Shown piece by piece: positions 5,799 to 64,000 of a stretch of DNA of 64,000 nt; within the stretch, counting starts at the first letter, position 1, and each line of letters starts with the position of its first letter. The DNA lies in NCBI GenBank assembly GCA_001464695.1, contig LNDQ01000039.1, positions 1 to 64,000 on the forward strand, written 5' to 3'. The notes below the pieces were generated by a model that was not told the origin of the DNA, ran no database searches, and saw nothing but the letters and a program-made list of their open reading frames with translations. The DNA is from Betaproteobacteria bacterium Ga0077523. Lineage in GTDB: Bacteria; Pseudomonadota; Gammaproteobacteria; Burkholderiales; Ga0077523. Both the position numbers and the translations under genes were made by a program.

Positions 5799-7142
5799 AT
5801 GTCGATGATTCGTGGAATCACCGTCACTGCAGTCGCGGTGATCGCGCTCGGCGTTGCCGCAGTCTTCTTCGTGCGTACCTACTGGAGCGGCGACCGGATC
5901 GTATGGTCGGATGCCTATGTCGCCCTCGATGCCGCCGAACTGCATCGATCCCCGAACGCAGCCGAACATGAACGATTGCTGCTCGCCAACGCCATGGCGG
6001 AAGGCGAAGCGCCAGAGGGCATGCCTGCGGGGCGGCGGCTTCACCCGATCGGTACACTCGTGCGGCTGCGCTACGAGGTTCTCGACGACGCCGGCGGGGT
6101 CGCGGATACCGTCGACGTGCGAGCTATCGTGCCTGCGCTCCCGTACTTTGGCGCCGATGCACCCGCGGCACCGTTCGGCACGACCGGATGCCCGCAGGCG
6201 TGCCAGCAGCACCGCACGGCTGCCCAGGCCACGCTGATCGATCGCACCGGGCAGCCCGGCCTCGCCGACGAGTGGGTACTGCGGATGCCCGTCGGTCAGC
6301 CCTTCCCTCTGGGAAAGCGGTCTCTGACGGTACGGGACTTCCAGGCGGCGGCGCCCTATTCCATCCCGCTCGCACCCTTGCGAGTCACGATGGTCGAGGC
6401 CTGCAACGGTCGGCTTCGCGCCGGGGCCGCAACGCATCTCGAGTTCTTTCCGTTCGCAATCGTGCCGATTCCGAGCGGGCTGCATACCGACCGATGGGTG
6501 CAGATCGAAGGCTGCGGGCAGCTCGTGGCTGCCGTGCCCGCCGCCCGCATCGCCGCTGCTCCCGAGCCCGACCCGAACACCGTGGACGAAGCTATGGCGC
6601 CGCCGGGCAAGGAACTGCGCCGGCGTGTCCCGCCCTCCGCGGCGGAGCTGGAGGCGCTTGTGCCCGACAACGAAGGGCAACCGCTCGGCCGTGCCTTGCT
6701 GGTGGTGAACGAATCGTGGCTGGCGGGACATGGCCGGCCCCAGCGCGTGCGCATCGCGCGGGCGTGCCGGTTCGACGGCGACGCAAACCGATGGCGGCCG
6801 ATCCCGCTGCCGGACGGCGATCTGGAGATCGCCCTGCAGCAATCCGTGCCCGGCGACGGGCAGCCGCCTCGACGGGTCGCGATGCGTCTGCCGGAGGGTC
6901 CCGCGTTGTTCTGGGCCGAGTGGACCGAAGCCGATCTGGATCAACCTGGGGCGGGCCGCACGCACGCGGTGTCGCTCGAATCCGGTCGCAAGCCGCAGTG
7001 TCCTCGCACGGTACGTCGCGCGGTGGCACCAGACGAGATCGTCGCCTGCGTACCGAACCACGCGACGGGTGCCGTCAGGGCAGTGCCGGACCCGGTAGCC
7101 TACTGCTCCGGTCCGGACACCGCTGCGAAGGTCGCCAAATGA
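5799..7142 (+). CDS. membrane-anchored periplasmic protein of unknown function
   Basis: 447 residues. One N-terminal transmembrane segment or uncleaved signal (residues ~5-27, ITVTAVAVIALGVAAVFFV) should anchor a large periplasmic domain. A strong ribosome-binding site (GAGGAGGGCGGC) precedes the ATG, supporting the start. The body is rich in Pro, Arg and Ala, has scattered Cys pairs (TTGCPQACQQH) and no motif I recognise. It heads a run of four uncharacterised envelope genes (to 9645). I cannot assign a function. Confidence 0.6.
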   Translation: MSMIRGITVTAVAVIALGVAAVFFVRTYWSGDRIVWSDAYVALDAAELHRSPNAAEHERLLLANAMAEGEAPEGMPAGRRLHPIGTLVRLRYEVLDDAGGVADTVDVRAIVPALPYFGADAPAAPFGTTGCPQACQQHRTAAQATLIDRTGQPGLADEWVLRMPVGQPFPLGKRSLTVRDFQAAAPYSIPLAPLRVTMVEACNGRLRAGAATHLEFFPFAIVPIPSGLHTDRWVQIEGCGQLVAAVPAARIAAAPEPDPNTVDEAMAPPGKELRRRVPPSAAELEALVPDNEGQPLGRALLVVNESWLAGHGRPQRVRIARACRFDGDANRWRPIPLPDGDLEIALQQSVPGDGQPPRRVAMRLPEGPALFWAEWTEADLDQPGAGRTHAVSLESGRKPQCPRTVRRAVAPDEIVACVPNHATGAVRAVPDPVAYCSGPDTAAKVAK

Positions 7143-7324
7143 AGTCGCGGCACGCCAGGTGGCGAACTTGCCCGAAGGTCAGCGGCTGGACGCAGGACGA
7201 AGCCGCCGCGGTCGAGTAGCCCTTCCTGACGCGAGAAAGTCAAAGTGCCAACGGCTGCGCCAAGCTCTTCAGAGAAGGGCATGACGGCCGATACGTAGCT
7301 GACACCCTTGTCTATGCCCCTTGC

Positions 7325-52742: not shown

Positions 52743-52812
52743 GCCCCCATCCCAACCTTCCCCCCACGAAGTTGGGGGAAGGGGTGTACGTCCCCTCCCC
52801 CGGCTTTGCCGG
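52743..52812. repeat. interspersed hairpin repeat, copy 3
   Basis: CCCCCATCCCAACC leads into the stem CCTTCCCCC...GGGGGAAGG (52756-52782), followed by GGTGTACGTCCCC and a half hairpin CCTCCCCCGGCTTTGCCGG. The TGTAC linker between hairpins is shared with the copies at 60.1 and 62.7 kb. Confidence 0.75.
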
Positions 52813-54465: not shown

Positions 54466-56064
54466 ATGGTCGTGCTCGGTTGGCTGCTCGGTGTCGTCAT
54501 CGCGATCATCGCGATCGCGGTCATCGTCGTATTCCTGAATCGCTTCTACCGGAAGTCCTCGCGCGACATAGCACTTGTGCGCACCGGTTTCGGCGGTCAG
54601 CGCATCGTGATCTCGGGCGGCTGCCTCGCATTGCCGTTCCTGCACAAGGTCGACGAGATCAACATGCGCACCATCCGCGTGGAGGTGAAGCGCACCGGCG
54701 ACAAGTCGCTCATCACCACCGACCGCATCCGCGTCGACGTGGAACTGGAGTTCTACGTGCGCGTGCTGCCGTCGATCGAGGGCATCGCCACCGCCGCCCA
54801 GGCGATCGGTTCGCGTTCGTTCAATCCCGAAGGCATCCGCAATCTCCTCGAAGGCCGGTTCGTGGACGCGCTGCAGTCCGTGGCCGCGGCCGAAACCATG
54901 GACAGCCTGCACGAGAAGCGCGGCGAGTTCGTGCGTCACGTGGCCGACATGCTGCGGGAGAACCTGCAGCACAACGGCGTGCTGCTCGACTCCGTCTCGC
55001 TCACCCGGTTGGACCAGGCCTCCTTCGCCGCGCTCGACGAGAACAACGCGTTCAACGCGGTCGGAATGCGCAAACTGGCCGAGATCATCTCGAGCAACCG
55101 CAAGAAGCGCACGGAGATCGAAGCCGAGGCCGAAATCGCGGTGCGCCAGACACAGCTCGACGCCACCAAGCGGCGGCTGCTGCTCGCGCAGGAAGAAGAG
55201 CAGGCACAACTCGGCCAGCGTCTCGAGATCGAGAAGGTGAAGGCATCCACGGAAGCCGAGTCCGCCAAGGCGCGCGAGCAGGCCATGGTTGCCACCGAGA
55301 ACGCCCGGATCGAGCGCGAGCGGGAGACCAAGGCGCTCGAGATCACCAAGCAGCGCGAGCTGCGCAAGCTCGAGATCGAATCCCAGTTGAACTCCGAGCT
55401 GCGCAAGGTCGACAGTTCGATCCAGCTCGCCAACAAGCACGTGGAAGAGGCGAAAGCGCAAGCCCAGGCCGAGATCGCCCGCACCGAGATCGTGCTCGCC
55501 CAGGAGCACGTGCAGACCGAGCGCGAGCGCGCAGTCGCCGACCGGTCACGCGAGATCGCCGCCAAGCGTGTACTCGAGGAGGGCGAAACCGCCGCCGCCA
55601 ACGCCGAGACCGAGGCCGGCGTGCTGATCAAGCGCGCGCAGGCCGAATCGCAGGCGACGCGCGCCCGCGCGGAAGCCGAGCGCGCGCGCCTGCTGGCGGA
55701 ATCGGAAGGTGCCGCCGCTCGCATCAAGGCCGAGAACTCGCGCACCGAGAGCCTCATGCACCTCGAGCTGGAGCGCTACCGTCTTGACAAGCTGCCCGAG
55801 ATCGTCGAGCAGATGATGAAGCCGGCGGAAAAGATCGACAGCATCCGCATCCACCAGGTGAGCGGCTTCAACGGCGCTCCGGGTCAACCGGGCACGACCA
55901 CGGCCGGAGATGCCGGCGCTGCGCGCCCGCCGATCAACCAGGTCATGGACAGCATCCTCGGCATGGCGCTGCAACTGCCGGCCCTGAAGAGCATCGGCGA
56001 ATCCATCGGCTACGACTTCTCCGGCGCGTTGCCCAAGTCCGAAGGCGGCACCAGCAAGGAGTGA
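54466..56064 (+). CDS. flotillin-family protein (SPFH/band-7)
   Basis: 532 residues. One N-terminal transmembrane segment (~3-24) anchors the protein. The SPFH domain covers ~30-215 (ALVRTGFGGQRIVISGG, MRTIRVEVKRTGDKSLIT, TDRIRVDVELEFYVRV). A long Glu/Ala/Arg-rich coiled coil spans ~220-450 (repeated A-E-A heptads such as ARAEAERARLLAESEG). The C-terminal ~70 residues are non-coiled. It resembles E. coli YqiK and bacterial flotillins, which form membrane microdomains. The usual NfeD partner gene is not adjacent. Confidence 0.9.
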   Translation: MVVLGWLLGVVIAIIAIAVIVVFLNRFYRKSSRDIALVRTGFGGQRIVISGGCLALPFLHKVDEINMRTIRVEVKRTGDKSLITTDRIRVDVELEFYVRVLPSIEGIATAAQAIGSRSFNPEGIRNLLEGRFVDALQSVAAAETMDSLHEKRGEFVRHVADMLRENLQHNGVLLDSVSLTRLDQASFAALDENNAFNAVGMRKLAEIISSNRKKRTEIEAEAEIAVRQTQLDATKRRLLLAQEEEQAQLGQRLEIEKVKASTEAESAKAREQAMVATENARIERERETKALEITKQRELRKLEIESQLNSELRKVDSSIQLANKHVEEAKAQAQAEIARTEIVLAQEHVQTERERAVADRSREIAAKRVLEEGETAAANAETEAGVLIKRAQAESQATRARAEAERARLLAESEGAAARIKAENSRTESLMHLELERYRLDKLPEIVEQMMKPAEKIDSIRIHQVSGFNGAPGQPGTTTAGDAGAARPPINQVMDSILGMALQLPALKSIGESIGYDFSGALPKSEGGTSKE

Positions 56065-56140
56065 GTGCAGGCCCGTTCATCGCGCCGACGGCGTTGAATC
56101 GTTCCGCATGCATCGTCGGAACAACCACAGGGAGCAGAAC

Positions 56141-57367
56141 ATGAGGGTTTCTAGGCGGGACTTTCTGGGCGCCACCGGCGCCCTTGCGGTATCGAGCAGT
56201 CTCGGGTCCGTCGGGGCGTTCGCCCAGGGCAAAGACATTCTGCTGGGGTCGGTGCTCGACAATTCCGGCAATCTCGACATCTACGGCAAGCCGATGGTCA
56301 TGGCCACGACCATGGCGGTCGAGGAATTGAATGCCGCCGGCGGACTGCTCGGCCGCAAGATCAAGGCGATCCAGTACGACACCCAGTCGGACATCGCGCT
56401 CTACACCAAATTCGCACAACAGCTCGCGCGCACCGACAAGGTGGATGTCGTACATGGCGGCATCACCTCGGCCTCGCGCGAAGCGATCCGCCAGACCTTC
56501 AAGCGGGCCAACACCCTGTACTTCTACAACGTGCTGTACGAAGGGGGGGTGTGCGACCGCAACTGCGTGGTGACCGGCACGACGCCGGCTCAGGCGGTGG
56601 AGCCGATCGTCGAGTACGCCATGAAGAAGTGGGGCAACAAGGTCGTGATCCTGGCGGCCGACTACAACTACGGCCAGATCACCGCCAAGTGGCTGCAGCA
56701 CTACATCAAGGAGCGCAGTGGCACGGTGGCTTCCACCGACTTCTTCCCGCTCGACGTCGCCGACTTCGGTTCGACCATCGCCAAGATCCAGCAGGCCAGC
56801 CCGAACTTCGTGGTGGCGGCACTGGTGGGCGGCGCGCACATGGCGTTCTTCCGCCAGTGGGCCGCTTCCGGCATGAACAAGAAGATTCCGCTCACCTCCA
56901 CCACCTTCGGCGTGGGTAACGAACACCTGGCGCTGTCACCCGCCGAGGGCGACGGCATCGTCATCGCGGGCAACTACAGCCAGGAAGCGCAGACGCCGGC
57001 GAACCAGGAGTTCCTCGCGCGCTGGAAGAAGCGCTTCGGCGACACCAAGATCGTGCACGAGATCGCCGTGTCGCAGTACCAGGGCATCTACGCCTGGGCC
57101 GAGACGGTGAAGAAGGCCGGCACGCTCGAGCGCGAAGCGATGCTGAAGGCGGTCGAGTCCGGCATCACGATCACCGGACCGGCGGGCACGGTGAGCATCG
57201 ATCCCAAGACGCACCACGCCGCACTGGACATCCACCTGATGGAAGTGAAGAACCAGAAGCTCACCATCATCAACACGGTGAAGCAGCGTCCGCCGTCCGA
57301 TACGGCGCAGTTCTGCGATCTCCTCAAGAACCCGAACGACAACAAGCAGTACGAAGTAAAGATCTGA
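56141..57367 (+). CDS. urea/short-chain amide ABC transporter substrate-binding protein (UrtA/FmdD-like)
   Basis: 408 residues from ATG 56141 (AGGGAGCAGAAC upstream). The Tat-type signal SRRDFLGATGALAVSS is followed by a type-1 periplasmic-binding fold: ILLGSVLDNSGNLDIYGKPM, EELNAAGGLLGRKIKAIQYD, DVVHGGITSASREAIR and VLYEGGVCDRNCVVTG. These match the Urt/Fmd branch of Leu/Ile/Val-binding-like proteins. It should capture amides or urea in the periplasm. It heads an operon with two permeases, an ATPase, and an ATPase-amidase fusion. No urease genes are present, favouring amides. Confidence 0.85.
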   Translation: MRVSRRDFLGATGALAVSSSLGSVGAFAQGKDILLGSVLDNSGNLDIYGKPMVMATTMAVEELNAAGGLLGRKIKAIQYDTQSDIALYTKFAQQLARTDKVDVVHGGITSASREAIRQTFKRANTLYFYNVLYEGGVCDRNCVVTGTTPAQAVEPIVEYAMKKWGNKVVILAADYNYGQITAKWLQHYIKERSGTVASTDFFPLDVADFGSTIAKIQQASPNFVVAALVGGAHMAFFRQWAASGMNKKIPLTSTTFGVGNEHLALSPAEGDGIVIAGNYSQEAQTPANQEFLARWKKRFGDTKIVHEIAVSQYQGIYAWAETVKKAGTLEREAMLKAVESGITITGPAGTVSIDPKTHHAALDIHLMEVKNQKLTIINTVKQRPPSDTAQFCDLLKNPNDNKQYEVKI

Positions 57368-57442: not shown

Positions 57443-58312
57443 GTGGACTACGCCGCCGTCGTCATCCTCGAGATCCTCTACATGATCTCGTTCATCGCGC
57501 TGGTGAGCGCCGGACTGGCGGTGGTGTTCGGGATGATGCGGGTCATCAATCTCGCCCACGGCGAATTCGTGATGCTGGGCGGCTACACGACTCTTGCCTG
57601 CCAGCGCGCCGGCATCGATCTGTGGTTTTCCATGCTCATCCTGGCCCCCCTCGTGGTGGGCCTGGTGGGTCTCATCGTGGAGCGGCTGGTCATCCGCTTC
57701 CTGTACGGTCGCATGATCGACACCATGCTCGCGACCTGGGGGCTGTCGCTGCTGCTGATCGGCATCGTCACTCTGATCTTCGGCAGCTCGGCGGTGAATG
57801 TGCCCACACCCATCCCGGGCTACCAGCTCGGGGCGTACCAGATGGGCGGCTACAACCTGTTCATCATCGGCGTCACGGTCGCGCTCTACATCGGCATGTG
57901 GCTGGTGCTGCGCTATACGCGCCTCGGGCTGATCGCGCGCGGTGCCATGCAGAACGCCGACATCGCCGCGTCGCTCGGCTACAACCCGCGCACGGTATAC
58001 ATGGTGACCTTCACCATCGGCGCAGCGCTGTCCGGCTTCGCCGGCGGCGTGCTCGCGCCGCTTACCGGTTTGCTCCCTGCATCGGGCGGCGGCTACATCG
58101 CGCAATCGTTCATCGCCGTGATCACCGGCGGGGCCGGCGCCGTCATTTCAGGCACGCTCGCAAGCTCGGTCCTGTTCGGCGCCATCAGTCAGATCGTGTC
58201 CTTCGCCTCCGGACCGGTGCTGGGCGACATCGTCATGCTGGGGCTCGCCATCGTGCTGCTGCGCTTGATGCCCACCGGCATCAGCGGCCGCTTCTTCCGG
58301 AACAGCCAGTGA
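57443..58312 (+). CDS. amide/urea ABC transporter permease (UrtB/LivH-like)
   Basis: 289 residues beginning with GTG. Eight hydrophobic segments. Typical LivH-type elements are GMMRVINLAHGEFVMLGGY near the N-terminus, the EAA-like cytoplasmic loop (GAMQNADIAASLGYNPRTVY), and FIAVITGGAGAVISG towards the end. The protein forms one half of the inner-membrane channel with the next gene product, overlapping it by four bases (GTGA). Confidence 0.9.
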   Translation: MDYAAVVILEILYMISFIALVSAGLAVVFGMMRVINLAHGEFVMLGGYTTLACQRAGIDLWFSMLILAPLVVGLVGLIVERLVIRFLYGRMIDTMLATWGLSLLLIGIVTLIFGSSAVNVPTPIPGYQLGAYQMGGYNLFIIGVTVALYIGMWLVLRYTRLGLIARGAMQNADIAASLGYNPRTVYMVTFTIGAALSGFAGGVLAPLTGLLPASGGGYIAQSFIAVITGGAGAVISGTLASSVLFGAISQIVSFASGPVLGDIVMLGLAIVLLRLMPTGISGRFFRNSQ

Positions 58313-59361
58313 AGATCTGGCCTTCCATCGGCCAGATGCGCTGGGGCTGGTTCCTGCTCGGCGCAGCCGTGATCCTGCTATGGCCCGTGTTCTTCGACAC
58401 GCACACCCCGACGATCCTGCTCGTGTGGGCGCTCTTTGCACTTTCGCTCGGACTCATGTGGGGCTACGCCGGCCTGCTGTCGTTCGGTCACACCGCCTAC
58501 TTCGGACTCGGTGCATACGTCTACGCGATTGCGGTCGTCAACATCGGCGAGAGCACCGTACCGTTGCTCCTGGCCATGCTGGTCCCCGCCATCGTCGCCG
58601 CGATCATCGGCGCGATGATGTTCTACGGGCGCATCAGCGACGTCTACATGGGTGTGATCACGCTGGTGGTGAGTCTCATCCTGTTCAAGTTCATGAGCGC
58701 CACCGCCGGCGACAAGTACGCGATCGGCGATGCACGCCTCGGTGGCTTCAATGGCATTCCCGGTTTCCCGGTGCTGAACGTCCCCGGGCTGCCCGACGTT
58801 TCGCTGTTCGGCGTGCCGATGTACTACGTCGCCGCTGTGGCGCTGCTCGGCTGCTATCTCATCAGCCGCTGGCTCCTCGCCCGCTCCTTCGGGCGCGTGC
58901 TGGTGGGCATCCGCGAGAACGAAGCACGTTGCGAACTGCTCGGCTACAGCGTCCCGGCATACAAGACGGCGATCTTCTCGATCAGTGCCGCGATGGCCGG
59001 GCTCGCCGGCTGCCTGTTCGCGAACTGGGCGGAGATCGTGACGCCGAGCGTGTTCAGCCTGCGCTCCGCCGCTGAGGTCATCATCTGGGTGATCGTCGGC
59101 GGCCTCGGCACGCTGGTCGGACCGATCCTCGGCGCGATGGTGCTGGGCATGTTGAAACTGCTGCTGAGCGAACAGACCGTCATCGATAACTCGCTCATCC
59201 TCGGCTTCATCCTCGTGGTCGTGGTGCTGGCAATCCCGCGCGGCGTCGTACCGGCGCTACAGGGCTGGTTCGGAAAGCGCACCCGGATCCGCACGCAACG
59301 TGCAGTGCACGTGCGAGCGCGACGCCGGGTCGCCGCACCCGCTCCGGGACGAACACCGTGA
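58309..59361 (+). CDS. amide/urea ABC transporter permease (UrtC/LivM-like)
   Basis: 350 residues. The GTG start overlaps the previous stop. About nine transmembrane helices, with the family motif LMWGYAGLLSFGHTAYFGLG, and the loop GIRENEARCELLGYSVPAYK before the late helices. The last ~30 residues are very Arg-rich (TRIRTQRAVHVRARRR) and extend past the usual end, possibly a tail contacting the ATPases or a frayed C-terminus. The stop overlaps the next start. Confidence 0.9.
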   Translation: MKIWPSIGQMRWGWFLLGAAVILLWPVFFDTHTPTILLVWALFALSLGLMWGYAGLLSFGHTAYFGLGAYVYAIAVVNIGESTVPLLLAMLVPAIVAAIIGAMMFYGRISDVYMGVITLVVSLILFKFMSATAGDKYAIGDARLGGFNGIPGFPVLNVPGLPDVSLFGVPMYYVAAVALLGCYLISRWLLARSFGRVLVGIRENEARCELLGYSVPAYKTAIFSISAAMAGLAGCLFANWAEIVTPSVFSLRSAAEVIIWVIVGGLGTLVGPILGAMVLGMLKLLLSEQTVIDNSLILGFILVVVVLAIPRGVVPALQGWFGKRTRIRTQRAVHVRARRRVAAPAPGRTP

Positions 59362-60080
59362 GCGAAGCCGTCGTCGAGACCATCGAGCTCACCAAACGCT
59401 TCGGCGGGGTGACCGCGGTGGATCGCGTGAACTTCCGCCTCGGCGAGCGCGAACTGCGCTGCCTGATCGGCCCGAACGGTGCGGGCAAGAGCACGTTCTT
59501 CAAGTGCCTCACCGGTCAGTATCCCCTCGATCACGGCAGCGGACGCATCCTGATCCGCGGCAACGACGTCGGCGGCCTGCGGCCGCACCACATCGTCCGC
59601 ATGGGTGTGGGCATCAAGACCCAGGTGCCGTCGGTGATGAACGGACTCACCGTGATGGAGAACCTGTGGCTCGCCGCGCGCCGCACCCACGGCTGGGACC
59701 GCTGCGGGTCCGAAGTCCAGCGCGTCGTGGACGAAGTGGGCCTCGGCGACATCGCCCGCCGCACGGTGGGCGAACTGGCCCATGGCCAGCGACAGATGGT
59801 GGAGATCGGCATCGTGCTCGCGCAGGAGCCGTGGCTCGTGCTGCTCGACGAACCCGCGGCCGGCATCACGGGCGCCGAAGTGGAACGGCTCGTGAGTCTC
59901 ATCCGGCAGATCAACCAGACCGCTTCCGTGATCGTGGTCGATCACGACATGGAATTCGTGCGCATGCTGGGTACCGACATCACAGTGTTCTATCAGGGTG
60001 CGGTGTTGATGGAAGGGCACGTGGACGAAGTCCTGGCCGACGCGCGGGTGCGCGAGGTCTACATCGGGAATCGGGCATGA
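59358..60080 (+). CDS. amide/urea ABC transporter ATP-binding protein (UrtD/LivG-like)
   Basis: 240 residues from GTG 59358, overlapping the permease stop. Walker A GPNGAGKST (~38-46), signature LAHGQRQMVEIGIVLAQ with LAHGQ in place of LSGGQ, Walker B LVLLDEPAAGIT, switch His in IVVDHDMEFVRML. The LAHGQ variant is common in UrtD. It is one of two ATPases of the transporter; the other is the N-terminal half of the following fused protein. Confidence 0.9.
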   Translation: MSEAVVETIELTKRFGGVTAVDRVNFRLGERELRCLIGPNGAGKSTFFKCLTGQYPLDHGSGRILIRGNDVGGLRPHHIVRMGVGIKTQVPSVMNGLTVMENLWLAARRTHGWDRCGSEVQRVVDEVGLGDIARRTVGELAHGQRQMVEIGIVLAQEPWLVLLDEPAAGITGAEVERLVSLIRQINQTASVIVVDHDMEFVRMLGTDITVFYQGAVLMEGHVDEVLADARVREVYIGNRA

Positions 60081-60085
60081 GGCGT

Positions 60086-60177
60086 TGCCCCCATCCCAAC
60101 CTTCTCCTGCCTTCGGCGGGGGAAGGGGTGTACGCCCCTTCCCCCAGCTTTGCTGGGGGAAGGTTGGGATGGGGGCC
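60086..60177. repeat. interspersed hairpin repeat, copy 4 (paired inverted form)
   Basis: Two hairpins (60100-60126 and 60137-60163; stems CCTTCTCCTGCC/GGCGGGGGAAGG and CCTTCCCCCAGC/GCTGGGGGAAGG) are joined by GGTGTACGCC. The outer flanks CCCCCATCCCAACC and GGTTGGGATGGGGG are inverted relative to each other, so the whole unit is a BIME-like palindromic pair. It lies inside the operon, between the UrtD-like gene and the fusion gene. Confidence 0.8.
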
Positions 60178-60192
60178 AGCGGACTCATCGAC

Positions 60193-62652
60193 ATGACAAC
60201 GCAAGCAGAAGCCACCTCCAACCCCGAAGCCGCCGACGTCTTCGAAGTCAACGACGTACGCGCCGGTTACGGCCACGTGCCGGTCCTGCACGGTGTCTCC
60301 CTCGCCCTTGCCGCCGGCGACGCCCTGGGCATCGTCGGCCACAACGGCATGGGCAAGACCACGCTGCTGAAAGCGCTGATGGGGCTGCTGCCCGTCACCT
60401 CGGGCGTGATCACGCTGGACGGCGTCGACATCACGCGCGAACCCGCCTACGCCCGCAGCCGTCTCGGCATCGCCTACGTGCCGCAAGGCCGTGGCATCCT
60501 CCCGGCCCTGACCGCACTCGACAACCTGCGCCTCGCATGGAGCCGCGACACCGAAGAGACCGAACAGGAATCGCTCGATCGCGTGCTCGCGTTGTTTCCT
60601 CGACTCACGCAACTGCTCGACCGGCGCGGCGGCAGCCTGTCGGGTGGCGAACAACAATTGCTGGCGCTCGCCCGTGCACTCATGGCGAGCCCGTGGATGC
60701 TGCTGCTCGACGAGCCGTCGGAAGGCATCCAGCCATCCATCGTGCAGGAGATCGGCCAGACGCTGTCGCGTCTGCGACACGAAGCGGGACTCACCATGAT
60801 CGTGGTGGAACAGAACCTCGATCTGGTGCTCGATGTCGCGAATCGCATCGCCGTGCTGGAGAAAGGGCGCATCGAACGCGTGCTCGACACCGACAAGCTC
60901 GTCGGCGGCGAGCTTGCCACGGTCCTGGGCATGGGCGCGGCACGCATCACGCGCGGCACGGCACGTGCCGCGCTTGCTCCCGCTCGAGCACCTGCGCTGC
61001 CGCAGCGTCCCGCGGCTGCACCTCCTCGCGCCGACACGCCACGCGTCGACGTACGCCCGCTTCCACAGTCATCGGGTCCGACCAGTCCGCCGCCCGCGGC
61101 GGCCGCACCCGCCGTCCATTCGTCAGGGGTCACCATGGCAACCGTCAAACGTCCCACCCTCGCACAGATGAAGGAGGTCGTCGCCTCGCTCCACATGAGC
61201 ATGTCGGATCGCGAAGTGGCGGACTACATGGAGGTCATGGAAGGTGCGATGCAGGCCTACGATCGCATCGCGCAACTGCCGGACAACCTCCCCGCGGTGC
61301 GCTACCCGCGCACGCCGGGCTACCGGCCCGGCGCGGCGGAGAACCCGATGAACGCGTGGGCGGTGAAGAGCGAAGTGCGCGGGGCACCCTACGGCCCGCT
61401 GTCGGGCAAGCGCGTGGTGCTGAAGGACAACGTGTGCCTCGCCGGCGTGCCGATGATGAACGGTGCGTCCACGCTCGAAGGCTACGTTCCCGACATCGAC
61501 GCCACCGTGGTGACGCGCCTGCTCGATGCGGGCGCAACCATCGTGGGCAAGGCGCACTGCGAATACTTCTGCCTCTCGGGCGGCAGCCACACTTGTGCGG
61601 CAGGGCCGGTGCACAACCCGTTCAAGTACGGCTACATGGCCGGTGGTTCTTCGAGCGGTTCCGGTGCACTGGTGGGTGCGGGCGAGGTGGAGATCGCGAT
61701 CGGCGGTGACCAGGGCGGTTCCATCCGCATGCCGGCCGGTTGGTCCGGCTGCTACGGCATGAAGCCCACTCACGGTCTCGTGCCCTACACCGGTGTCATG
61801 CCCATCGAGGCGACGATCGATCACACCGGGCCGATGACCACGACGGTCGCCGACAACGCGCTGGTTCTCGAGGTGCTCGCCGGGCCCGATGGCCTCGATC
61901 CGCGCCAGTACGACGTGCGGGTGGACAAGTACACCACGGCACTCGGTCGCGGTGTGGCAGGACTGCGCATCGGCATCGTCACCGAAGGCTTCAACCGGCC
62001 GGAGAGCGAAAGCGACGTGGACCAGAAAGTGCGCGCCGCTGCCGATCGCTATCGTGCGCTCGGAGCCACCGTCGAGGAAGTCTCGATCCCGATGCACCTC
62101 GACGGACCGGCCATCTGGACGCCGATCGCTCTCGAAGGCCTGCAGGCCCAGATGATGAACGGCAACGGCATGGGCTTCAACTGGAAGGGGCTCTACACCA
62201 CCAGCCTGCTGGACGCCCACGCCAACTGGCGCGCACGCGCCAACGAGCTGTCCCAGACCCTGAAGCTCTCCATGATGGTCGGCGAGTACTTCATGAAGCA
62301 GTACCGCGGCCATTTCTATGCGAAAGCCCAGAACCTCGGGCGCTTGCTGACGAAGGCCTACGACGACGCCTTCGGACGTTTCGACTTGCTGCTCATGCCC
62401 ACGCTGCCGATGAAGGCGATGCCGATTCCGCCCACCAACGCGCCGTTGGCGCTGTACGTCCAGAGCGGGCTGGGCATGGTCAACAACACCTGCCCGTTCG
62501 ACGTCACGGGCCATCCGGCCATGAGCATCCCGTGCGGCATGAGCCAGGGCCTGCCAATCGGCCTGATGCTGATCGCGCGGCACTACAACGAGTCGACGAT
62601 CTACCGCGCTGCGCACGCGTTCGAGCAGCTGGGCGACTGGCGGAATATGTAA
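60193..62652 (+). CDS. fusion of LivF/UrtE-type ABC ATPase and amidase-signature amidase
   Basis: 819 residues in one frame from ATG 60193. Residues ~13-245 are a complete ATPase: Walker A GHNGMGKTTL, Q-loop VPQGRGILPALTALDN, signature LSGGEQQLLALARAL, Walker B MLLLDEPSEGI, and VVEQNLD. A Pro/Ala-rich linker (~256-314) follows. From Met315 (61135) a full-length amidase begins (MATVKRPTLAQMKEVVAS). It contains Lys411 (VLKDNV), cis-Ser486 (GGSSSGSG) and Ser510 (GGDQGGSIRMPA). The spacings of 75 and 24 are those of the Lys/Ser/Ser triad in Rhodococcus-type amidases. The amidase would hydrolyse the amide imported by this transporter. Met315 could also serve as an internal start for free amidase. 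Confidence 0.85.
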   Translation: MTTQAEATSNPEAADVFEVNDVRAGYGHVPVLHGVSLALAAGDALGIVGHNGMGKTTLLKALMGLLPVTSGVITLDGVDITREPAYARSRLGIAYVPQGRGILPALTALDNLRLAWSRDTEETEQESLDRVLALFPRLTQLLDRRGGSLSGGEQQLLALARALMASPWMLLLDEPSEGIQPSIVQEIGQTLSRLRHEAGLTMIVVEQNLDLVLDVANRIAVLEKGRIERVLDTDKLVGGELATVLGMGAARITRGTARAALAPARAPALPQRPAAAPPRADTPRVDVRPLPQSSGPTSPPPAAAAPAVHSSGVTMATVKRPTLAQMKEVVASLHMSMSDREVADYMEVMEGAMQAYDRIAQLPDNLPAVRYPRTPGYRPGAAENPMNAWAVKSEVRGAPYGPLSGKRVVLKDNVCLAGVPMMNGASTLEGYVPDIDATVVTRLLDAGATIVGKAHCEYFCLSGGSHTCAAGPVHNPFKYGYMAGGSSSGSGALVGAGEVEIAIGGDQGGSIRMPAGWSGCYGMKPTHGLVPYTGVMPIEATIDHTGPMTTTVADNALVLEVLAGPDGLDPRQYDVRVDKYTTALGRGVAGLRIGIVTEGFNRPESESDVDQKVRAAADRYRALGATVEEVSIPMHLDGPAIWTPIALEGLQAQMMNGNGMGFNWKGLYTTSLLDAHANWRARANELSQTLKLSMMVGEYFMKQYRGHFYAKAQNLGRLLTKAYDDAFGRFDLLLMPTLPMKAMPIPPTNAPLALYVQSGLGMVNNTCPFDVTGHPAMSIPCGMSQGLPIGLMLIARHYNESTIYRAAHAFEQLGDWRNM

Positions 62653-62669: not shown

Positions 62670-62836
62670 CGTTGCCCCCGCCCTAGCCCTCCCCCGGCGA
62701 CGCCGGGGGAGGGGATGTACACCCCTTCCCCCAACTTTGTTGGGGGAAGGCTGGGATGGGGGCAGCTGCTCGATGATGGTGACCGCAAGCCCCCTCCCTA
62801 ACCCTCCCCCGGCTTTGCCGGGGGAGGGAATGTACA
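62670..62836. repeat. interspersed hairpin repeat, copy 5 (three hairpins)
   Basis: Three perfect stems lie in a row. CCTCCCCCGGC/GCCGGGGGAGG is at 62688-62712, CCTTCCCCCAAC/GTTGGGGGAAGG at 62724-62750 and CCCTCCCCCGGC/GCCGGGGGAGGG at 62802-62828. The first and third are followed by the TGTACA linker, and GCTGGGATGGGGGC closes the first pair. It separates the fusion gene from the acyl-CoA synthetase and may end or stabilise the operon transcript. Confidence 0.8.
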
Positions 62837-62879: not shown

Positions 62880-64000
62880 ATGACGACCAACCCCTTCCGC
62901 TCCGACTGGCTCAAAGCTGAAGTCGACGGCACCGGGCGCCCGCAACGCGGACTGTCCTACGTCGCCGGATCCACCGCGGAACCGCTGCGTTACATCACCC
63001 TAACCGGATTGCTCGACGAAACCGTCGACCTCCACGGCGGACGTGAGGCCGCATATTTCGCTGCATCCGGCCGACGCTGGTCGTGGTACGACGTACGCTC
63101 GCGTGCCGACGAAGTCGCGGCCGGCTTGCTCGCACTGGGCATCGAGCGCGGCAACCGCGTGGGGCTCTGGGCGCCCACCTGCGAGGAATGGCTCGGCACA
63201 TTCTTCGGTGCCGCCCGCATCGGTGCGATCGTCGTTCCGCTCGATCCGGCATGGAGCGAAACGGCACTCGAGCACGCGTTGAGCACCGCCGAGTGCCGCG
63301 TACTCGTGCTGTCACGCTACGCCGGCAATCGCGATAACGTGGCGACCTTGCGCGGCCTCACGCCGGAGATCGACCGCAGCTGGCCCGAGGGAAAGCTGCG
63401 CAGCGAGCGCCTGCCGCGGTTGCGTTACGTGGTGCTGCTCGGCGAGGGCACGACACCGCCCGGAACGCTGACGTTCAAGGCACTGCGACGCCTCGCCGGT
63501 CCGGCACAGGGCGCTCGGCTCGCCGGCACGAGTGCTGCACTGGACCCCGACGGCGCCGCAGTCATCCAGTTCACCAGCAGCGCTGGTGAACCCTCGCGCG
63601 GTGCCACCCTGACGCATAGGGGCCTGGTCAACAACGCGATCTTCGCCGCGACGGCAATGCGATTGTCTGCCCACGATCGATTCTGTGTCGCCGGGCCACT
63701 GCATCGCTGGTTCGGCCTCGGTCCGGGCATGCTGGCCGGCGTCGCAGCGGGAGCCACCATGATCTTCCCGGCACCGAGCTTCGATGCCACGAAGACTCTG
63801 TCGGTCATCGGCGAGCAGCGCTGCACTGCCCTGCATGCCACGCCCTCGATGCTGAGCGCCCTGCTCGATCATCCGACCTTGCGCGGTACCGACGTGAACC
63901 ATCTGCGCGGTGGCGTCACCGGCGGAGGTCCGATGGGGGCAGAAACGTTCCGACGCATCGCGAGTGAATTGCATCTGCCCGAACTCACGACGGCCTATGG
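62880..64000 (+). CDS. AMP-dependent acyl-CoA synthetase (partial, runs off window)
   Basis: 373 codons from ATG 62880 remain open at the window end. The N-terminal adenylation domain is recognisable: WSWYDVRSRADEVAAGLLAL, GNRVGLWAPTCEEW, GAARIGAIVVPLDPAW, and VNNAIFAATAMRL after the nucleotide-binding loop. That loop reads FTSSAGEPSRGATLTHRG, a divergent form of (Y/F)TSGTTGxPKGA, in which the usual Gly-Thr-Thr is Ser-Ala and the Lys is Arg. GVTGGGPMGAETF precedes the A5-type AYG at the last bases. It may activate the acid released by the upstream amidase, or may be a specialised relative. Its own C-terminus is not visible. Confidence 0.8.
   Translation, partial: MTTNPFRSDWLKAEVDGTGRPQRGLSYVAGSTAEPLRYITLTGLLDETVDLHGGREAAYFAASGRRWSWYDVRSRADEVAAGLLALGIERGNRVGLWAPTCEEWLGTFFGAARIGAIVVPLDPAWSETALEHALSTAECRVLVLSRYAGNRDNVATLRGLTPEIDRSWPEGKLRSERLPRLRYVVLLGEGTTPPGTLTFKALRRLAGPAQGARLAGTSAALDPDGAAVIQFTSSAGEPSRGATLTHRGLVNNAIFAATAMRLSAHDRFCVAGPLHRWFGLGPGMLAGVAAGATMIFPAPSFDATKTLSVIGEQRCTALHATPSMLSALLDHPTLRGTDVNHLRGGVTGGGPMGAETFRRIASELHLPELTTAY

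Follow-up and report, generated by a model that had tools for sequence, protein, structure and literature searches.

Introduction

Importers of the urea/amide type, such as UrtABCDE and LivFGHMJ-like systems, combine a binding protein, two permeases and two ATPases, and the gene order urtABCDE is also that of the transporter genes in the block described here. Amidases related to the one studied here are found as separate proteins, e.g., the Rhodococcus N-771 amidase (3a1i/3a1k), a chain of about 520 residues. On the plasmids pAtAF1_95 of Agrobacterium and pTM2 of Tistrella, the gene of an amidase 62–64% identical to ours lies directly behind the second ATPase gene of such an importer. Moreover, the nitrile pathway with an acyl-CoA synthetase, said to go back to Hashimoto and colleagues in 2005, reportedly brings an amidase together with an acyl-CoA-forming ligase. 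Joining of a transporter with a cargo-cutting enzyme in one chain is known from ABC exporters containing a C39-type peptidase.

Here, we analysed a stretch of 64,000 nucleotides (hereafter the window; contig LNDQ01000039.1) from Betaproteobacteria bacterium Ga0077523, in which an importer ATPase and an amidase occupy a single gene. A sequence-only reading of this gene had described two complete halves with intact motifs in one frame, a Pro/Ala linker of about 60 residues between them, and an in-frame ATG at 61135 that may allow production of free amidase. In the following, we follow up these claims by comparison with related loci and consider what such a gene could do for the uptake of amides.

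Results

Two complete enzymes in one reading frame

The features of the locus are, in order (all on the + strand, positions of the window):

54466..56064, +, flotillin-like membrane scaffold protein, 532 aa, first gene of the block (PF15975, Band_7)
56108..57367, +, periplasmic amide/urea-type substrate-binding protein, 419 aa (Pfam Peripla_BP_5/6)
57443..58312, +, permease 1, UrtB/LivH-like (Pfam BPD_transp_2)
58309..59361, +, permease 2, presumably UrtC/LivM-like as judged by gene order, overlapping its neighbours by 4 nt (reading frame; homologue upstream in 73/73 fused loci with sufficient flank)
59358..60080, +, partner ATPase, UrtD/LivG-like (Pfam ABC_tran; NCBIfam UrtD 231 bits, cut-off 304.1)
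60193..62652, +, fused gene of ATPase, linker and amidase, 819 aa
60193..60912, +, LivF/UrtE-like ATPase domain, residues 1–240 (Pfam ABC_tran, 1ji0)
60931..61134, +, disordered, fast-changing Pro/Ala-rich linker, residues 247–314 (pLDDT, dN/dS)
61125..61129, +, ribosome-binding-like element AGGGG, 5 nt before the internal ATG (anti-SD duplex –6.0 kcal/mol)
61135..61137, +, internal ATG, residue 315, at the place of the ancestral free-amidase start (ATG in 86/86 fused genes)
61135..62649, +, amidase-signature enzyme domain (NF005565 807 bits, 3a1i/3a1k)
61423, 61648 and 61720, +, codons of the amidase residues K411, S486 and S510
62880..63998, continuing past the window end, +, acyl-CoA ligase (Pfam AMP-binding)

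Positions 60193–62652 (+) are translated without a stop into 819 aa in a single frame. The mechanical ORF list offers an alternative of 855 aa from a TTG at 60085, but this frame opens at a palindromic repeat, and the ATG at 60193 is therefore the likely start. Imperfect palindromic repeats of about 90 nt directly flank the fused gene on both sides (60087–60176 and 62674–62763), and another one lies at 52743–52812. With at most 3 mismatches allowed, the 27-nt repeat core is matched 101 times in forward and 106 times in reverse orientation in the own genome, against 0 for a control, the two counts overlapping because the core is palindromic.

Both halves are complete, with motifs intact, as had been read from the sequence: the Pfam scores of both and the NCBIfam score of the amidase lie above their cut-offs, and the key columns are invariant or nearly so in 42 fused proteins. 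Pfam places ABC_tran at residues 32–176 (107.6, cut-off 25) and Amidase at residues 392–803 (305.7, cut-off 27), while the NCBIfam amidase model PRK07235 spans residues 317–818 with 807.3 bits (cut-off 545). Among the transporter models of NCBIfam, the ATPase half is nearest to UrtE and LivF; its best PDB sequence match is 1ji0, and its fold match reaches a TMt of 0.90. The AlphaFold model of the 819-aa protein has a mean pLDDT of 79. For the amidase half, sequence and fold agree on the Rhodococcus N-771 enzyme as the top match, with 47% identity in the fold alignment.

On the ATPase side, the Walker A lysine (Lys55), the LSGGEQQ signature, Asp173-Glu174-Pro175 of Walker B and the Q-loop residue Q98 are invariant in the 42 fused proteins; elsewhere in Walker A, H50 and M53 are kept in at least 90% and position 56 is T or S. 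On the amidase side, K411, S486, D506 and S510 are invariant in the same set. K411 and S486 correspond to K96 and S171 of the Lys-Ser-Ser catalytic set. D506 and S510 align with D191 and S195 of the Rhodococcus amidase at a constant offset of 315, and this Asp/Ser pair is reported to be essential for that enzyme (PMC11205548). By its sequence, the amidase half is a full member of the PRK07235/amidase-signature family, for which hydrolysis of amides is predicted.

The fusion is real and sparsely distributed

A linker stop codon lost through an error of assembly or sequencing would produce the same picture, and the assembly behind the window is indeed a draft, with 156 contigs and a completeness of 87%. 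Independent genomes refute this explanation, whose probability we regard as negligible. The same fusion occurs, at 96% and 94% identity, in two genomes of the own genus (G008 and G009), whose synonymous distances to the window amount to 0.35–0.75, and a genome from another family (G034) has it too. In a scan of a genome collection, 76 of 80 loci were fused and the other four were cut by a contig end, these 80 being the best of 186 and biased to full-length matches, so that the count is no measure of frequency. Furthermore, on a complete plasmid of Sulfitobacter alexandrii the whole fusion is annotated as one CDS (WP_071974000.1), to which RefSeq gives just the name "amidase". The fusion is thus confirmed, and the loss of a linker stop by sequencing error, which the sequence-only reading had named as a possible refutation, is excluded.

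In its distribution the fusion is sparse. It was present in 3 of 60 relatives, and a whole-protein search (E ≤ 1e-150) gave no fused match except the own one, neither among 369 genomes from this class nor among 299 from this phylum, with two or three candidates scored per genome. When the amidase part alone was used as query in a sample of 385 genomes from the class of G547, which we take to be Alphaproteobacteria, 36 genomes matched, and the 30 loci given included 10 fused ones and 1 cut by a contig end. A plasmid search matched 83 records, none of them covering 80% of the query at E ≤ 1e-100. Ten of the 83 were opened and one, that of S. alexandrii, was fused; since it was fused although it lay under the coverage cut-off, this cut-off hides the ATPase piece. 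Altogether, the fused set comprises 86 distinct sequences labelled as Alpha-, Beta- and Gammaproteobacteria plus one SAR324 record, with 12 of the 86 lacking a class label and many stemming from metagenome bins, which can be mislabelled.

A conserved seven-gene block surrounds the fusion

The fused gene lies in a block with the conserved order flotillin, binding protein, permease, permease, partner ATPase, fusion and acyl-CoA ligase. Counting one locus per distinct amidase where the flank was long enough, the partner ATPase was found in 73 of 74 fused loci, the permeases in 70/70 and 73/73 and the binding protein in 67/67. A flotillin gene lies upstream in 65 of 66 fused loci. The ligase gene follows the fusion immediately in 68 of 74, which is a lower bound, since L081 has the ligase by clustering but failed the distance rule. 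The flotillin of the window scores above cut-off for PF15975 (116.1 bits, cut-off 27) and Band_7/SPFH (54.8 bits, cut-off 23.6) in Pfam, with no NCBIfam match at E 0.001.

Unfused loci with an adjacent ATPase gene share the transporter (UrtD-like ATPase 18/19, permeases 19/19 each, binding protein 18/18), but flotillin was found in 0 of 14 and the ligase in 0 of 17. As flotillin and ligase accompany the fused genes but not the unfused ones examined, the fusion marks a separate system and not a random accident in one operon.

In the window, the partner ATPase gene and the fusion are 112 nt apart (60081–60192), a gap filled by repeat sequence; in Denitrobaculum these two ORFs overlap by 4 nt (L048:6702-6705). 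In a Comamonadaceae locus (L034:11066-15207), the block is extended by genes for a further amidase and a further acyl-CoA ligase and by a thiolase-like gene, and several other Burkholderiales show the same order by clustering. Such an extension may hint at a fatty-acyl-type breakdown of the product. Just past the window end, behind the ligase, the opposite strand carries genes for another amidase, distantly related at 28% identity, and for another binding protein (26%; L115:4891-6192 and 6469-7323, –). Other amide-related genes that recur around fused loci encode an FmdA-type formamidase, a nicotinamidase-like hydrolase and a pyroglutamyl peptidase (L081:11907-12893, L048:12172-12792 and L076:1-774).

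Amidase trees point to one fusion event

In a first amidase tree, 79 fused and 51 unfused sequences are split by one branch with an SH-aLRT of 100 (four rows cut by contig ends uncounted). A second tree with more rows separates 86 fused from 62 unfused sequences, again on one branch (SH-aLRT 94); here, the long-branched rows L112, L113, L114 and L157, kept in the first tree, were left out, and five contig-end-cut rows were uncounted. No unfused member lies inside the fused amidase clade of the 86-vs-62 tree, these five rows being unscored. By these trees the fused amidases are one clade, and since only one change is needed, several independent fusions were rejected.

The ATPase (NBD) parts speak less clearly. 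Their free quick tree, based on a shorter alignment, needs two changes, forced by starred branches, and 14 unfused NBDs fall among the fused ones, so that this tree does not show one clade. When the fused NBDs were held together, the log-likelihood was higher by 11.8 (p-AU 0.737), so a single origin is not rejected on this side either.

An unfused operon in which the amidase follows the ATPase was likely the forerunner of the fusion. In 10 of 12 unfused loci inspected, the transporter genes are present and the amidase gene immediately follows that of the second ATPase. Two of these ten (L117 and L118) have the gene order of the window, with transporter parts that are 50–57% identical; in the other eight, the first permease precedes the binding protein or, in part, both stand in other orders. 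Where ATPase and amidase genes are separate, 17–372 nt lie between them (30 rows).

An internal start signal is kept at the junction

The internal ATG at 61135 encodes residue 315, two residues ahead of the start of the amidase model match (profile position 2). An ATG is kept here in 86/86 fused genes, at the site where the free amidase of the unfused cousins begins, and the residues preceding this methionine vary from group to group. In the window, the anti-SD duplex of the AGGGG element has a lower energy than at every linker position tested. Over the fused genes, the mean duplex energy at the junction is –6.4 kcal/mol, compared with –2.3 for 1930 other in-frame ATGs of the fused genes and –8.2 for 61 native starts of unfused amidases. 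An SD-like core stands ahead of the internal ATG in 74 of 86 fused genes, distributed over the three codon phases as 46/19/9, and such a spread argues against one protein motif as its cause; at the remaining 12 junctions none of the listed SD-like cores was found. Compared with other positions of the same linker, the junction ranks in the best 5% in 42 of 86 genes, and in 21 of 39 when only rows below 85% ungapped identity are considered.

The mRNA is open at this site: mean folding is –4.6 at the junction, –5.5 at native starts (n = 61) and –9.3 at other in-frame ATGs (n = 344, with at most four drawn per fused gene). A window scan found such a dip in folding, relative to the rest of the gene, at 80 of the 86 junctions, the 86 rows being related by descent, which makes formal p-values of the SD and mRNA-folding tests too small. 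An internal start signal in the fused gene is well supported by these comparisons. As the ATG is kept in all fused genes and the SD-like core and the open mRNA in most, one gene probably yields both a transporter-tethered and a free amidase, and the suggestion that free amidase may be made from 61135 proves to be the strongest point of the sequence-only reading.

Alternatively, the 819-residue tethered protein could be the sole product, with the ATG and the purine-rich stretch before it either being leftovers of a separate gene or serving the protein sequence. Such leftovers would fit the unfused cousins, in which a separate amidase gene with a start of its own immediately follows the ATPase gene, as well as the 12 junctions without a recognised SD core and a mean match weaker than at native starts. 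However, the ATG persists in every fused gene while the linker around it is hypervariable, the SD-like cores occur in three codon phases and behind different amino acids, and the mRNA around the site is, on average, no more folded than at native starts. We consider a tethered protein as the only product quite improbable and favour the view that both forms are made.

The linker is disordered and its frame is kept open

Residues 247–316 have a pLDDT below 50, at about 30, and are predicted to be disordered. The flexible Pro/Ala linker proposed earlier is therefore retained, but its length is nearer 70 than 60 residues. Over the 86 fused genes the linker spans 47–142 aa with a hypervariable sequence. 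Its reading frame is open in all 86, compared with 17 for the +1 frame, 37 for the +2 frame and 17.8 as expected from base shuffling. In the three pairwise comparisons among the window and the two relatives closest to it, the domains have a dN/dS of 0.02–0.04 and the linker one of 0.16–0.28, the latter as for translated sequence under weak protein constraint.

These data bear on a further option, namely that the free amidase does the work: internal initiation would supply most of the enzyme, while the tethered copy would be a tolerated by-product of stop-codon loss, functionally uncoupled from transport. The better anti-SD match at the internal start of the window than at the gene's own start (–6.0 vs –3.2 kcal/mol) points in this direction, and the flexible linker sets no fixed geometry. 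A mere by-product is, however, difficult to reconcile with a linker frame open in every fused gene and a dN/dS that stays well under 1 in all three pairs of close relatives, or with a fused clade in which, apart from the five unscored rows, no unfused member was found. We judge this option to be unlikely and continue with a gene that makes both forms.

Transporter type and neighbouring nitrile genes

A urea importer was rejected as identity of the transporter, as the four parts scanned score below the NCBIfam cut-offs for UrtA, UrtB, UrtD and UrtE. The binding protein reached 335.1 (cut-off 494.8) and 243.3 (492.75) bits with the urea SBP equivalogs, permease 1 reached 215.6 (374.25) and 197.5 (250.3) bits with UrtB, and the ATPase half 255.6 (285.8) bits with UrtE. 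Urea-binding proteins and AmiC are among the PDB relatives of the binding protein.

Some unfused cousins adjoin steps that produce amides, i.e., nitrile hydratase and aldoxime dehydratase. Agrobacterium pAtAF1_95 combines aldoxime dehydratase, transporter, amidase and nitrile hydratase, and Tistrella pTM2 combines transporter, amidase and nitrile hydratase. In Pantoea, aldoxime dehydratase and nitrile hydratase flank an amidase without an adjoining transporter of this kind; in Pleomorphomonas and Aureimonas, transporter and amidase occur with no nitrile hydratase in the stretch seen. Beside the fusion, nitrile hydratase was not found: the two alpha genes of the own genome (87% complete) sit on contigs C108 (G000:C108:96949-97497) and C79 (16921-17466), and not on C39, the contig of the fusion. 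The same genome has a free amidase paralogue (G000:C81:12103-13656, 58% identical); in the 19 kb around it, no transporter gene of the block was detected.

Discussion

Taken together, we hold with moderate confidence that the block encodes an import-and-cleave system for an organic amide, whose fused gene is read two ways to give a tethered and a free amidase. The binding protein and the two permeases would bring the amide in, driven by a motor in which the UrtD-like ATPase joins with the ATPase half of the fused protein. Held on its flexible tether at the inner mouth of the permease, the amidase half could convert the amide to acid and ammonia before it leaks back, thereby trapping it. Neutral amides can diffuse back, which is why trapping would matter, and metabolic trapping is often invoked for the uptake of small, neutral, leaky molecules. 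The downstream ligase would turn the acid into its acyl-CoA, and flotillin may gather the parts at the membrane. From the operon context, a joining of transport and hydrolysis is plausible, but hydrolysis of the imported cargo itself by the amidase, and a coupling of both activities, are inferred.

Regarding the two forms, the gene's own start would give the tethered form and the kept internal start the free amidase. The Rhodococcus amidase dimerises through its N-terminal helices; if the enzyme described here does the same, free subunits could let tethered ones pair in an oligomer without cross-linking two pumps. An alternative role of the free form could be to provide bulk activity. A more far-reaching and doubtful proposal is that the locus represents an importer class in which the motor subunit bears the cargo-destroying enzyme, tethered and free forms are made in a set ratio, and mixed oligomers dock on the pump in a flotillin domain, making uptake, trapping and CoA activation one membrane machine.

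If the import-and-cleave reading is true, a pump joined to its trapping enzyme makes metabolic trapping testable via one linker, and the kept internal start raises the question why both enzyme forms persist across so many lineages. Moreover, the seven-gene block gives a bacterial flotillin a specific genomic partner and thereby a handle on what flotillins scaffold. The RefSeq example seen also illustrates how annotation can hide such a fusion. In the open-access literature, of which titles and abstract openings were searched and which leaves most subscription journals outside its scope, no description of the fusion was found. The two halves and the unfused operon are of known kinds; the undescribed part would be the fused, putatively two-product importer subunit accompanied by flotillin.

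In comparison with the nitrile pathway attributed to Hashimoto and colleagues, the contig of the fusion is without nitrile hydratase, and we know of no transporter fusion in that pathway. Unlike the fusion, pAtAF1_95 and pTM2 encode ATPase and amidase as two genes with nitrile hydratase nearby, and no flotillin or such a ligase in the stretches seen. From the exporters with a C39-type peptidase, the present system differs in that it would import instead of export and carries an amidase instead of a protease; to our knowledge, no two-product gene has been described for these exporters. The separate chain of the Rhodococcus N-771 enzyme has its counterpart here behind an importer ATPase in one and the same polypeptide. 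With respect to UrtABCDE and LivFGHMJ-like importers, finally, it is the second ATPase that bears the enzyme, and flotillin and an acyl-CoA ligase are added to the common set of five transporter parts.
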